A stretch of 20,347 nucleotides of DNA from a virus: positions 1 through 20,347 of the IMG/VR virus record IMGVR_UViG_3300010149_000242; one strand, given 5' to 3'. Positions 8,036 through 19,800 of the stretch are shown here, piece by piece. A program made the position numbers and the translations under genes. Position 1 is the stretch's first letter. Every line of letters starts with the position of its first letter. The notes below the pieces were generated by a model. It had not been told where the DNA came from. It did no database searches and saw only the letters and a program-made list of their open reading frames with translations.

Positions 8036-8251
8036 CTATCCGACAGGAATGTTCAAACCTGAACCACCATCACCACCTATGTTAGCAGAACCAGTCTTAA
8101 CGACTAAAGCTTTTTTACCCTTACGCCTACGTCCCATTTTACCACCTTCTGTTTCTACCATAGCTTCAGCTTCCTGATCCATTGGTTTAGCAGCAGCGGT
8201 AGATGAAGCAGGTGCTGATACTGGCTTGGAGCTTCTAATAATTCCACCCAT
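8036..8251 (-). CDS. gp6.7/gp7.3-like small virion protein, copy 2
   Basis: 71 residues. It has an N-terminal MGGIIRSSKPVSAPA, an Ala/Pro-rich spacer, a basic block GRRRKGKKALVV, and a C-terminal glycine-rich end DGGSGLNIP. T7 gp7.3, a minor virion protein ejected into the cell, has the same order: a basic block (GRKKARAGGKKSLSV) followed by a terminal SGGGINI. The neighbouring 75-residue gene shares every one of these elements, so the two look like products of a tandem duplication. The start is two bases after the stop of that copy. Function in this phage is inferred from the family. Confidence 0.72.
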   Translation of the reverse strand: MGGIIRSSKPVSAPASSTAAAKPMDQEAEAMVETEGGKMGRRRKGKKALVVKTGSANIGGDGGSGLNIPVG

Positions 8252-8252
8252 T

Positions 8253-8480
8253 CTAATCTCCTGTTGTTGGAATTTGTAAGCCAGAGCCAGAACTACCTGT
8301 CTGTATAGAAGTGTCTTTTAAGTCAACACGTAGCTTACGCTTGCCTCTTTTCTTTTGTATTTGATCTGCGTCTAAACCCTGACCAGCAAGCTCAATATCT
8401 GGTGTCTTAGCGACAGCAGTTACTGGTCTAGCTGGTGCAGGTAGTGGTCTAGGTACTGATGATCCGAATAATCCACCCAT
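8253..8480 (-). CDS. gp6.7/gp7.3-like small virion protein, copy 1
   Basis: 75 residues with the same architecture as its downstream neighbour: MGGLFGSSVPRPLPAPA at the N-terminus, an Ala/Pro-rich linker, the basic block KKRGKRKLRV, then SSGSGLQIP near the end. The basic block also resembles GRKGLKV in T7 gp6.7. The position before the portal fits either T7 gene. Expected to be a minor virion component that is ejected or needed for tail assembly. GGGGA lies seven bases before ATG 8480. The gene starts three bases after the stop of the 60-residue gene. Confidence 0.72.
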   Translation of the reverse strand: MGGLFGSSVPRPLPAPARPVTAVAKTPDIELAGQGLDADQIQKKRGKRKLRVDLKDTSIQTGSSGSGLQIPTTGD

Positions 8481-12104: not shown

Positions 12105-12285
12105 CGTGTATATCCCCTTTCTTTTTTTCCTCATCTTTAACATTGTTGAGTGTTACTATCTTGATACCTGTAGTCACTTGTATGTAGTCAAGGTATGACT
12201 CAACAATCCACTTGATACATAGGCAGATAGACACTCCAAAGAATGAGGCAGTGAGTATCAACCTAAAGATAAAATCAAAGTCCAT
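12085..12285 (-). CDS. Small single-pass membrane protein, 66 residues
   Basis: From ATG 12285, inside the end of the preceding gene, to the stop 20 bases into the exonuclease. I prefer this start to the upstream in-frame one at 12360 because the extra residues only mirror the neighbour's other frame. Residues 6-27 (IFRLILTASFFGVSICLCIKW) form a probable membrane helix; the rest is polar and charged (KDEEKKKGDIHDDP). No signal cleavage site is obvious. It could be a small membrane effector or part of lysis, but there is no positive evidence for either. Confidence 0.62.
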   Translation of the reverse strand: MDFDFIFRLILTASFFGVSICLCIKWIVESYLDYIQVTTGIKIVTLNNVKDEEKKKGDIHDDPTAY

Positions 12286-12835
12286 GCTGGATACACTCCT
12301 TAGCCTGACCAACAGACATCTTGAACCATTCACCTCTACGTTCAGATATCTTCTCAGCAATTTTGTGTGCAGCAGCCTCAGCCTTACGCCTGTCTTTACT
12401 GTAGACAGAGTAAGCTAGTACATAGTTACGCAGTGGGCTACTAGTCTGATAGTTATCTAGTCTGTTCTCAGCGTTTATAGCCATGCCTATCTTAACCCAC
12501 TCAGGCCAAGCAGAGTTAGTAATGATATAGACTTCACCTGCCTTTTCTTCATTGTAAGATCGTAAGACGGTAGCTCCAATAGTTTCTGCCAGTCTCTTTA
12601 GTCTATTCTTTTTACGCTTAATACTGTCACAAGATGTACAAGTATATTGTTTTGTACGAGCATTACCATGTGACCAGTTGTCTCCTTCTTGTAAAGATAC
12701 TGTGCAGTGGATGCAGTTTCTAGTGGGTGTCTGCCCAGCTTCGTCCGTACTTGTATTCACTGTCGAGTCTACATCTGAACTTGAAGTGTTCTTCAACGTC
12801 CCGCATACACTTAAGAATAATTCGCCCTGCTTCAT
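12275..12835 (-). CDS. T5orf172/GIY-YIG-like protein with a zinc-binding head
   Basis: 186 residues. A four-cysteine treble-clef-like module (C41-x2-C44, C66-x2-C69) is followed by a basic helix, then a T5orf172/MUG113 domain of the GIY-YIG superfamily: VYIITN (102-107), WVKIGMA (113-119), R125 in ENRLDNYQTSSP, E153 and H157 in AEAAAH, and GEWF at 168-171. The residues fit an intact nuclease-type centre; a free-standing (homing-like) endonuclease or DNA-binding protein is likely. The first 39 codons lie inside the DNA polymerase 3' end in another frame, with AAGGAAGG upstream of ATG 12835. The recognisable domain begins right after the polymerase stop, so a start within the overlap, for example GTG 12760, is possible. 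Confidence 0.8.
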   Translation of the reverse strand: MKQGELFLSVCGTLKNTSSSDVDSTVNTSTDEAGQTPTRNCIHCTVSLQEGDNWSHGNARTKQYTCTSCDSIKRKKNRLKRLAETIGATVLRSYNEEKAGEVYIITNSAWPEWVKIGMAINAENRLDNYQTSSPLRNYVLAYSVYSKDRRKAEAAAHKIAEKISERRGEWFKMSVGQAKECIQHGL

Positions 12836-17373: not shown

Positions 17374-19023
17374 CTATGCAAAAAAGTACTGTGATTTCAG
17401 TATGTTCTGCAGGTCTAAATTACCTGTAGCTGGTGGTTGTGGAACATCATTTGTTCCAAGTACGACAGTAGCATGTTCTCGTAGCTCTGTCAATACATCA
17501 TGTTCAGTATACAACCGAACAAATTCTTCTCGTAATACTTCAGACAAGCGAGGCATGTCAGAACTGTGAGTACCATAGCTGTCGTGTACCATGGCAAAGT
17601 CCTTGATGCCCTGCTTCTTACACGTGTTGATAGTCTTAGTCATAGCTGCAGCATCCAGTGAGTGGATGAAGTTAGGGCTCGCACCTGAAGCAGTACGCCT
17701 CTTACTCACCTCGTTGTCTCTGTCCTTGTTAAAGATAAGCGCAACTGTAGTACCATTGATGTGTGTCCAGATACGTTTCTTATCTACCTCGTTGTAGTTC
17801 TGCATGACCAGCCAGTTAGTAGGTGTAACCCACTCCATGTGCCTGTTGTGTTCAGCATAGACAGCACCCACTTCCTTGATGTAGTCCATCACTTGTCGTG
17901 CTGACTCGATGACACCATTGATAGCTGACCACACGTGCTTGGATAAGTAAGCAGAAGCTTTGAACAAGTCATCACCAAAGATGTCAGGCTCACCCTTCTC
18001 AATCCTGTCTCGTATCGCTTCGTGAATGTAGGTACGACAGGCGTGGATAGTACCACTGTAAGGTACAATCATCACTGGTCTTTTAGTCAATGCCCTGTTG
18101 ATACCAAACTCTATAAATTTTTTTGCTAAAATTTCTCCCTGTTCTGCATCCTTTAGGACTGTCCTCATTGCTTCATCTGCTACCTCAGTATAGATATCCT
18201 GAGGCAGAGTGGCAGGTATCAGATTAGTAGCCCTACCACCACGCTCATCACGCAGGATAGCTGACAGGTGTTGTAGTCCATTACAGCTACCATCAACAGA
18301 CGTAGGTAGATGAGATATGAAACCCCAGCCCTGCCTGACTAGGCCAGTAAACTCAAGACACCAGCCTAAGAATTGGTAAGGCTTGTCAGCATCCAGCCAC
18401 CACACGTTATCGTATGGGTTGTCAGCCACTCGCTTGATCTCATCAGCATTATCCCATGCCCATGACTCACGCTGGTCTAGTGTTACCTTGTCGTTACCAT
18501 ACAAGTTAGCACCATGAATACAAAGCCAACGTGCGTCATCCCAATTGTTGATAGGCTTACCATCTCTAAATATCAGCAAGGCTTTGCTCCAGTCTGCTGA
18601 CTGAGGTGACATGAAGGTACTACTAGCATACTTGCGTGACCTGAAGTCATTCTGCCACACATAGTAGAACTCATCGTACTTACTGTACTGCTCGCCAATC
18701 TGTAGTGTACGCTCCACTTGGATACGTTTACTCACTGTCCTATTGTTGAACGTGTATATCTCGTTGCGTTTCTTTGACCAGTTCTTAAACTGTTGTCTCT
18801 CCTCTTCATCCATAGCTGCTGGTTCCTTGTTAAAGGGGTAGCTAGGCAGTGGTCTGTCCTCTCTGGCTGGTAGCCCACCCCACTCCTGTCCACTGTCCCA
18901 CAGTGAGCGTATAATCGCCAGCAATGGCCTATTGATTTTCCATGCAGTGTGCTGCAGTGTGTTAAGGCAGTCAAATTCCTGAGATAAGTCTCGCTTTTTC
19001 AGCTTGGTCATGTGTTCCTTCAT
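17374..19023 (-). CDS. T7-like RNA polymerase, C-terminal fragment (thumb, palm, fingers)
   Basis: 549 residues carrying the whole catalytic part. D244 (VDGSCNG) and D481 (VHDSYG) match the two metal-binding aspartates of T7 (D537, D812). R310, K314 and Y322 (NRALTKRPVMIVPYS) match R627, K631 and Y639. The specificity-loop region (RIWTHINGTTVALIF, about 417-431) differs from T7, so the promoter should too. It ends SQYFFA, like T7 FAFA. The DX2GR motif reads DFRSR (126-130), serine for glycine. The fragment begins AGGA-6 bases-ATG right after the stop of the N-terminal fragment and lies in the same frame, three codons on. HTAWKIN near 25-31 resumes the T7 alignment. Confidence 0.93.
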   Translation of the reverse strand: MKEHMTKLKKRDLSQEFDCLNTLQHTAWKINRPLLAIIRSLWDSGQEWGGLPAREDRPLPSYPFNKEPAAMDEEERQQFKNWSKKRNEIYTFNNRTVSKRIQVERTLQIGEQYSKYDEFYYVWQNDFRSRKYASSTFMSPQSADWSKALLIFRDGKPINNWDDARWLCIHGANLYGNDKVTLDQRESWAWDNADEIKRVADNPYDNVWWLDADKPYQFLGWCLEFTGLVRQGWGFISHLPTSVDGSCNGLQHLSAILRDERGGRATNLIPATLPQDIYTEVADEAMRTVLKDAEQGEILAKKFIEFGINRALTKRPVMIVPYSGTIHACRTYIHEAIRDRIEKGEPDIFGDDLFKASAYLSKHVWSAINGVIESARQVMDYIKEVGAVYAEHNRHMEWVTPTNWLVMQNYNEVDKKRIWTHINGTTVALIFNKDRDNEVSKRRTASGASPNFIHSLDAAAMTKTINTCKKQGIKDFAMVHDSYGTHSSDMPRLSEVLREEFVRLYTEHDVLTELREHATVVLGTNDVPQPPATGNLDLQNILKSQYFFA

Positions 19024-19026
19024 AAC

Positions 19027-19800
19027 TTATCCTCTTCTGATTATAGGCACATCATCTAAAAAGCCTGCGTGATACCCACCACCATACACTGCAGTCCAGT
19101 CCTTGGGTGGTATGATACAGGGTGTCCAGCGTGGCCTTGCTGTCTCCATGTGTTCATTAAAAGCCTTGACCCATTCCTCTGTGATGGGTGTTGCGCGTAG
19201 AAACGTAGTGGTCTTGTTCCTTGCTGTTGATAGTTTCTCTAATCGTACTACACCTGTGTTCTGTATGACTACATCTACTAGGCGTAGTCCTACATGGATA
19301 CGTTCTTCACTACTCCATGCTAAGTCTTTGTACCCATCCTTGTTCATCTTGTTAGTCAGACCAAAGCGTCTGGCAGTCATGCCTTTCTCATTGGCTTTCT
19401 TGATTGTGTTCTTTGCTATGCTGCCCTCTGCAGCTATCCACTTATCAAGTCTGTCCTGCATCTCTACGTTAGAACCTATAGCCTTTGCCACTTTCATTAG
19501 TGTGTTAGACTTGCTGATCCCATCAACCATAGACACAAGCGTTAGGTATGCTACCTTGTCAGGTGCCATGTCTTGCAGTCTCTTGTAAGCTATGTCTCTG
19601 TTACTTGTTGGTGTGTTCTGTAGTTTCTTTACACCATCTGCAGTAGCAGATACGACAGTAGCTATGATAGTCCTGCCATGTAGGGTGGCAGACTCCCTGC
19701 CCTTAGCCATGGCACCATCTCTTTCCTTACGAAATCTGTTGATACCTGCAGTCAACATTTCCTGTTCAAGTTGCAGTTGATTTTCTAAACTGTACCCCAA
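19027..19800 (-). CDS. T7-like RNA polymerase, N-terminal fragment (promoter-binding domain)
   Basis: 257 residues. The T7 pattern is kept throughout: ENQLQLEQEMLTAGINRFRK (T7 REQLALEHESYEMGEARFRK), DKVAYLTLVSMVDG, SSEERIHVGLRLVDVVIQNTG (T7 KEDSIHVGVRCIEMLIESTG), and PCIIPPKDWTAVYGGGYHAG (T7 PCVVPPKPWTGITGGGYWAN). It ends DVPIIRRG followed by TAA, around residue 300 of T7 gp1, near the boundary between the N-terminal domain and the thumb. The start is TTG 19800 with AGGGGGG nine bases upstream; homology supports it over ATG at codon 15. About 25-30 T7 N-terminal residues are missing. It is not degraded: no frameshift or other stop is seen. Confidence 0.93.
   Translation of the reverse strand: MGYSLENQLQLEQEMLTAGINRFRKERDGAMAKGRESATLHGRTIIATVVSATADGVKKLQNTPTSNRDIAYKRLQDMAPDKVAYLTLVSMVDGISKSNTLMKVAKAIGSNVEMQDRLDKWIAAEGSIAKNTIKKANEKGMTARRFGLTNKMNKDGYKDLAWSSEERIHVGLRLVDVVIQNTGVVRLEKLSTARNKTTTFLRATPITEEWVKAFNEHMETARPRWTPCIIPPKDWTAVYGGGYHAGFLDDVPIIRRG
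19783..19796 (+). repeat. Promoter recognition half, pointing outward at the RNA polymerase start
   Basis: The plus strand reads TTCTAAACTGTACC, identical over 14 bases to the promoter at 17357-17373 on the minus strand, and over 13 to the one at 8686-8701. The match stops exactly where TATAG/TATTAG would begin (here CCAAG). It lies in codons 2-7 of the polymerase gene, antisense to it. With the copy after the polymerase stop it forms an outward-pointing inverted pair flanking the gene. Confidence 0.5.

Follow-up and report, generated by a model that had tools for sequence, protein, structure and literature searches.

A T7-type RNA polymerase predicted to consist of two subunits encoded by adjacent genes in a viral clade

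The window analysed here is a stretch of 20,347 nt that comprises positions 1 to 20,347 of the IMG/VR record IMGVR_UViG_3300010149_000242. Its T7-type RNA polymerase is encoded on the minus strand by two ORFs, which specify an N-terminal piece of 257 and a C-terminal piece of 549 residues (Table 1). Both ORFs share one frame and are separated by TAA and GTT, followed by the ATG of the C gene, and an AGGA (19033-19030) is located six bases 5' of this ATG, just as an earlier note on this DNA had described. The view of the same note that a change of the genetic code is unlikely holds as well, since further genes of the window are terminated by TAA. The N piece matches Pfam RPOL_N (E 3.4e-13, 50.1 bits vs. 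a cut-off of 30.1) and the C piece RNA_pol (E 7.3e-108, 361.7 bits vs. a cut-off of 22); with both matches above the cut-off, this is the domain order of the T7-type (single-subunit) RNA polymerase family. The pieces furthermore cover successive stretches of one PHROG (Table 1). The sequence match to T7 extends from residue 35 to 291 for N and from 314 to 883 for C, the last N residue is aligned to T7 residue 300 and C starts at about T7 302. This places the cut, in agreement with the earlier note, at about T7 300, immediately N-terminal of the thumb. The T7 residues D537, R627, K631, Y639 and D812 correspond to D244, R310, K314, Y322 and D481 of the C subunit, and these five equivalents are invariant in 14 C subunits; D537 and D812 have a catalytic role in T7. 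The N gene of the window begins with TTG, a start that is supported by four relatives (L015, L029, L035 and L219) with ATG at the aligned place.

Table 1. Coordinates of the two polymerase genes and of their features within the window
Feature	Position	Strand	Basis
N-subunit gene, 257 aa, TTG start, TAA stop	19027..19800	-	RPOL_N; phrog_414 5-256; start codon in relatives
C-subunit gene, 549 aa, from ATG to TAG; encodes thumb, palm and fingers with the catalytic residues	17374..19023	-	RNA_pol; phrog_414 271-816; T7 314-883
N-gene stop codon TAA; shares the C-gene frame in the window's lineage	19027..19029	-	sequence and relatives
GTT between N stop and C start	19024-19026	-	sequence
ATG start of the C subunit	19021..19023	-	sequence and relatives
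AGGA, Shine-Dalgarno-like, for the C gene, within the last N codons	19030..19033	-	sequence, pairing score
Codons of N residues 223-257, proposed docking tail; confident model only with the C part	19030..19134	-	models
Codons of N residues 185-203, predicted beta hairpin, located approximately where T7 has its intercalating hairpin	19192..19248	-	model, alignment
C-subunit D244 codon (equivalent of T7 D537)	18292..18294	-	alignment
C-subunit D481 codon (equivalent of T7 D812)	17581..17583	-	alignment

Downstream of the polymerase the window harbors genes for an endonuclease, a primase-helicase and a DNA polymerase. This is the usual gene order of Autographiviridae, and the polymerase is therefore regarded as the gene-1 polymerase of the phage. 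The window has its own T7-type polymerase ahead of a T7-like replication block, as is characteristic of Autographiviridae, and its DNA polymerase matches Roseobacter phage CRP-113 at 49%. The one-chain organization that defines the T7-type family is missing: as read from the genes, two ORFs are present at every one of the 101 distinct junctions in the clade to which the window belongs. No tRNA genes were found in the window. An ORF with T5orf172/MUG113 domains (12275-12835), which shares its sequence with the 3' end of the DNA polymerase gene but is read in a different frame, possibly encodes a GIY-YIG homing endonuclease. Two adjacent small ORFs (8036-8251 and 8253-8480), flanked by the genes for ribonucleotide reductase and portal protein, are paralogue-like and share a start of M-G-G and an end of G-S-G-L-x-I-P.

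Relatives were collected by scanning IMG/VR with the C protein of the window and with C and N alignments (best 80 matches per scan), by a scan of GTDB genomes that yielded 43 distant relatives, and by additional IMG/VR scans with polymerases of SAR11 phages, supplemented by chosen phage records. The N and C profiles served to classify 408 sequences, namely 407 loci with many overlapping copies and the window. Both parts were present in 383 of them and the junction was covered in 381; 272 sequences are distinct there, comprising 193 split and 79 single polymerases, figures that represent no estimate of prevalence because the queries were mostly split sequences and the best 80 matches were taken per scan. 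The 25 uncounted sequences, one part of which was not usable by the profiles, include L081, which is the window in opposite orientation, and N4. The candidate split in L187, a Binatota MAG, was rejected and removed from the counts, as its break is internal to the C part and its sequence does not cover the junction. Among the distinct junctions, all 42 host-genome loci and 16 of the 21 phage-record loci are single-chain. Among those of the first 80 loci that contain both parts, the polymerase is split at C identities of at least 48% and no split occurs at 43% or less.

Sequences were assigned to the window's clade (W) when the window, L047 or L219 was their best match, and the split members share at least 60% C identity with the respective reference; no single-chain sequence reaches 55% C identity to the W references. 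An enrichment scan for single-chain relatives of L051 returned near-copies and one end fragment and nothing else. In the phage collection, no isolate of W was found among the matches listed, by a method that may omit records very near the window. The best C identities there, among the matches listed, were 39.2% to the window and 40.7% to a deep W member (none of at least 60%), and the best N identity to the window was 31.5%. W comprises uncultured viruses of bacteria, whose probable marine origin is suggested by the nearest phage relatives.

The polymerase is present in two pieces in every W junction, i.e. in 101 of the 193 distinct split ones, and the start codon nearest to the N stop, which was the one counted per junction, is always an ATG, at a distance of -4 to +3 bases. 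Its offset from the N stop is -4 (54 junctions), -1 (17), +1 (15), +3 (14) or +2 (1). The frame of C relative to N is 0 in 14, 1 in 15 and 2 in 72 of the 101 junctions, and the N genes end with TGA (60), TAA (31) or TAG (10). The alignment of this junction in related phages, which the earlier note had proposed, hence documents a conserved position of the ATG, whereas the identity of the stop and the frame vary. The commonest layout is an ATGA overlap (54/101). L043 and L047, which are deeper members, have it as well, and the in-frame TAA of the window therefore looks like a later variant within W. Because the frame relation varies and all three stop codons occur, we regard this TAA as incidental. 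The earlier note had treated it as the key feature of the locus; the two genes are real, but their common frame appears to be a local accident, since most relatives use another frame, often with ATGA. The identical TAA GTT ATG junction was found in three contigs (L001, L002 and L042) that carry three different IMG/VR data-set numbers. An additional frame break in the C gene of G002/L050, which is absent from the near relatives examined, represents an assembly fault or decay, and the C gene of L059 is broken within a stretch of unread bases; both breaks are perhaps assembly faults.

Shine-Dalgarno pairing ahead of the C gene is modest in the window, being equalled or beaten by 9.6% of 1318 internal ATGs. 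For 32 split representatives, the median pairing at the C starts is reached by 3.3% of the 1318 internal ATGs, in a comparison that is biased toward this result by taking the best start candidate per locus and that uses fractions only, the background mean being distorted by duplex-free windows. The geometry of the junction makes termination and reinitiation a likely mode of expression.

Both pieces are under purifying selection. The median dN/dS of N and C amounts to 0.148 and 0.133, respectively, in W (12 members) and to 0.096 and 0.132 in the SAR11-phage clade P described below (7 members). In all ten long W records (31-42 kb, possibly partial genomes), RPOL_N and RNA_pol are each represented by a single gene, and none of them has a second T7-type polymerase gene; one of the ten is G002 with its C gene broken again.

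The fold was modelled with 53 alignment rows as a read-through single chain of the window, not as two chains (mean pLDDT 92.7, pTM 0.88). The cut maps to a loop (255-260) that precedes helix 261-268 of this model. The best structural matches are T7 elongation complexes (VIA Z 49.2, rmsd 2.9 over 682 residues), and the N part of the window is aligned from T7 residue 29 onward. Modelling of the N subunit alone recovered the helices and the hairpin up to residue 221, but residues 223-257 dropped to a pLDDT of 41-48, compared with 86-96 in the read-through model. The N-alone model was based on 13 alignment rows instead of 53 and confidence was also lost in the first 20 residues (63-68 vs. 87-94), and therefore alignment depth may explain part of the drop. 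The models suggest that the conserved N tail (P-P-K-D-W ... G-G-G-Y) docks on the core, as if it needed the C subunit.

A second group of split polymerases (P) comprises 92 distinct split junctions and one single ORF. It includes cultured SAR11 phages, with Eyrgjafa, Gjalp, HTVC025P and HTVC041P among its members, as well as the uncultured S30-C28 and KM23C739. The C start is located between -32 and +9 bases from the N stop in 89 of the 92 junctions, and the remaining three offsets are 131, 131 and 479. In HTVC025P (L267 3838-4334) two small hypothetical genes lie between the polymerase halves, which are 497 bases apart. The split in SAR11 phages was already known, because Chen et al. 2019 state that the polymerase genes of group III (HTVC019Pvirus), all but that of HTVC011P, are fragmented into two and that this interruption is not recent (PMC6811365). 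The term "RNA polymerase" is absent from the main text of the Eyrgjafa paper (PMC8163748). HTVC011P (L269, KC465900) has one polymerase ORF of 880 residues in GenBank, the only single ORF seen in P. Its IMG/VR relatives with 85-99% identity are split in all 14 distinct covered junctions, and the junction length of five relatives compared differs from that of HTVC011P by one base. This one-base difference and the split in near relatives indicate that the single ORF is likely the result of a sequence error or of a very recent fusion.

The cuts of P and W are located within a few residues of each other. The L-x-x-R/K motif belongs to N in W (L-P-I-x-R-R) and to C in P, whose C subunit has a start like M-H-Y-N-L/F-I/V-K and whose N tail is longer than that of W. 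Phylogenetic trees were calculated for 94 representatives and for a set of 55 rows with 200 bootstraps, obtained after removal of 27 rows with long branches or in their neighbourhood and of a further 12 that belong to the split clades. The split sequences of the larger tree fall into two groups, W (14 rows) and P (18 rows plus the single-ORF HTVC011P), and W adjoins the single-chain L051/L058 with an SH-aLRT of 100. The same sister relationship has a support of 100/99 in the smaller tree, and the split rows are joined in 0% of its 200 bootstrap trees. This topology, together with the different allocation of the L-x-x-R/K motif and the longer N tail of P, argues for two separate origins of the split, which is probably the better reading. 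A single ancient split in the common ancestor of W and P, followed by re-fusion in the intervening single-chain lineages, appears rather unlikely. It would account for cuts only a few residues apart, HTVC011P may be an example of a re-fusion, and the 55-row tree places W and P in one weakly supported group (83/84) with the single-chain Vibrio phage 526E57-1, L051, L058 and L184. The AU test does not reject one split clade on all 94 representatives (p 0.178), but it does so on the 55 rows (p 0.0006), a result that is weaker than its face value because the rows were picked once the first one had been seen.

Textbooks present T7 polymerase as the standard example of a one-chain RNA polymerase. 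The enzyme of the window resembles T7 gp1 in its fold, its catalytic residues and its genomic position ahead of the genes for endonuclease, primase-helicase and DNA polymerase, but it has two predicted chains. One engineered seam of T7 RNA polymerase is presumably located near residue 301. The bisection of the engineered enzyme, which is tolerated at 36 sites in five seams (among the named positions are 67, 179 and 601) with co-expressed fragments that work (PMC4299498), is artificial, whereas the split of W is natural. N4 RNA polymerase II of the Schitoviridae is likewise encoded by two adjacent genes and represents a biochemically characterised heterodimer (gp15 and gp16) of the T7-type family with truncated N-terminal and thumb domains and helper proteins (gp2) for promoter use (PMC4496689). 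Because of these two examples, a two-chain T7-type polymerase is of a known kind. The N4 cut is, however, located between thumb and palm about 160 residues beyond that of the window: gp15 ends at T7 453 or read-through residue 418 and the N subunit of the window at T7 300 or residue 257. The solved gp16 (6dt7_B) spans only model residues 420-808, and the N-terminal domain that is reported as truncated in N4 aligns from T7 29 in the window. Judged by these alignments, W and P exhibit a cut that is unlike the one of N4. The polymerases of W and P are both encoded by two genes with nearly the same structural cut, but P forms a separate clade of the tree, its C subunit starts before the L-I/V-K motif, its N tail is longer and its start offsets are wider. 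No description of the W split polymerase was found in the open-access literature among the matches listed. In the cyanophage P-SSP7 (L406 10928-12693) the DNA polymerase is annotated as two ORFs, either a split variant or a programmed event, which adds a further example of a divided core enzyme from a marine T7-like phage.

The window very probably encodes an obligate two-subunit T7-type polymerase whose genes would be translationally coupled and whose N tail would be docked on the core; coupling, assembly and activity are deduced. N and C would be made in turn from one mRNA by termination and restart, and C could alternatively be initiated at the Shine-Dalgarno sequence beside the N stop. In the structure of T7, the promoter-side elements belong to the N part and the specificity loop and the active site to the C part. 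The N subunit would accordingly constitute the promoter side, with the N-terminal helices, the region of the AT-rich loop and the intercalating hairpin, and the C subunit would provide thumb, palm, fingers, specificity loop and active site. Although no peptide bond joins them, the two would associate and adopt the fold of the one-chain T7 polymerase, with the last ~35 N residues docked on the core as a non-covalent tether. By analogy with T7, promoter-specific work should need N and C both.

The earlier note had favored a polymerase that naturally consists of two polypeptides, with the cut near the boundary of promoter-binding domain and thumb, and this reading is supported by the split in all 101 W junctions, purifying selection, the lack of a second polymerase gene in the ten long records and the model. 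Its alternatives fared worse. Programmed stop-codon readthrough or frameshifting that yields some full-length polymerase of 808 residues would be compatible with halves in one frame and a single stop between them, as they occur in the window and in 14 of the 101 W junctions, but C lies in another frame in the other 87, all three stops are used, a start codon is located beside every N stop of W, and two small genes separate the halves of HTVC025P in P. With such variation of frames and stops a readthrough or frameshift signal would be lost, whereas a coupled gene pair would persist, and we thus consider this mechanism extremely unlikely. That a recent nonsense mutation or a sequencing error has interrupted, in one genome, a polymerase that is intact in life is virtually impossible: the halves of the window are in frame and parted by one stop codon, and at the HTVC011P junction a one-base change suffices to turn one ORF into two, but the split is clade-wide and therefore old, selection acts on both pieces, the same junction recurs under several data-set numbers, and an intact gene is found in 0 of the 101 distinct W junctions.

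The N piece might also be a decaying or separately used leftover and C alone a promoter-independent or factor-guided polymerase. The catalytic residues are indeed located in the C piece, and N4 RNA polymerase II works with a truncated N-terminal domain and helper proteins (PMC4496689). We nevertheless regard such a role of N as very unlikely, given that N is constrained like C (dN/dS see above) and adjoins C at every split junction counted, a census of loci with both parts in which the halves of L267 are the ones 497 bases apart.

The occurrence of a two-piece polymerase in W and P at nearly the same cut suggests that the covalent link inside the T7-type polymerase is dispensable in nature. 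One might speculate that nature twice divided the one-chain enzyme, at almost identical seams, into a promoter-recognition subunit and a catalytic core because it is of advantage if the N subunit can detach or be exchanged, in the manner of a sigma factor of a single-subunit polymerase; we consider this unlikely, but if true, N could release, swap or refold more freely at the passage from initiation to elongation. Genome annotations of such phages should list two polymerase genes, and the question arises if naturally separate subunits might make better split polymerases for synthetic biology. W and P provide natural material for studying what the link between promoter domain and core is for, and whether N leaves after promoter escape.
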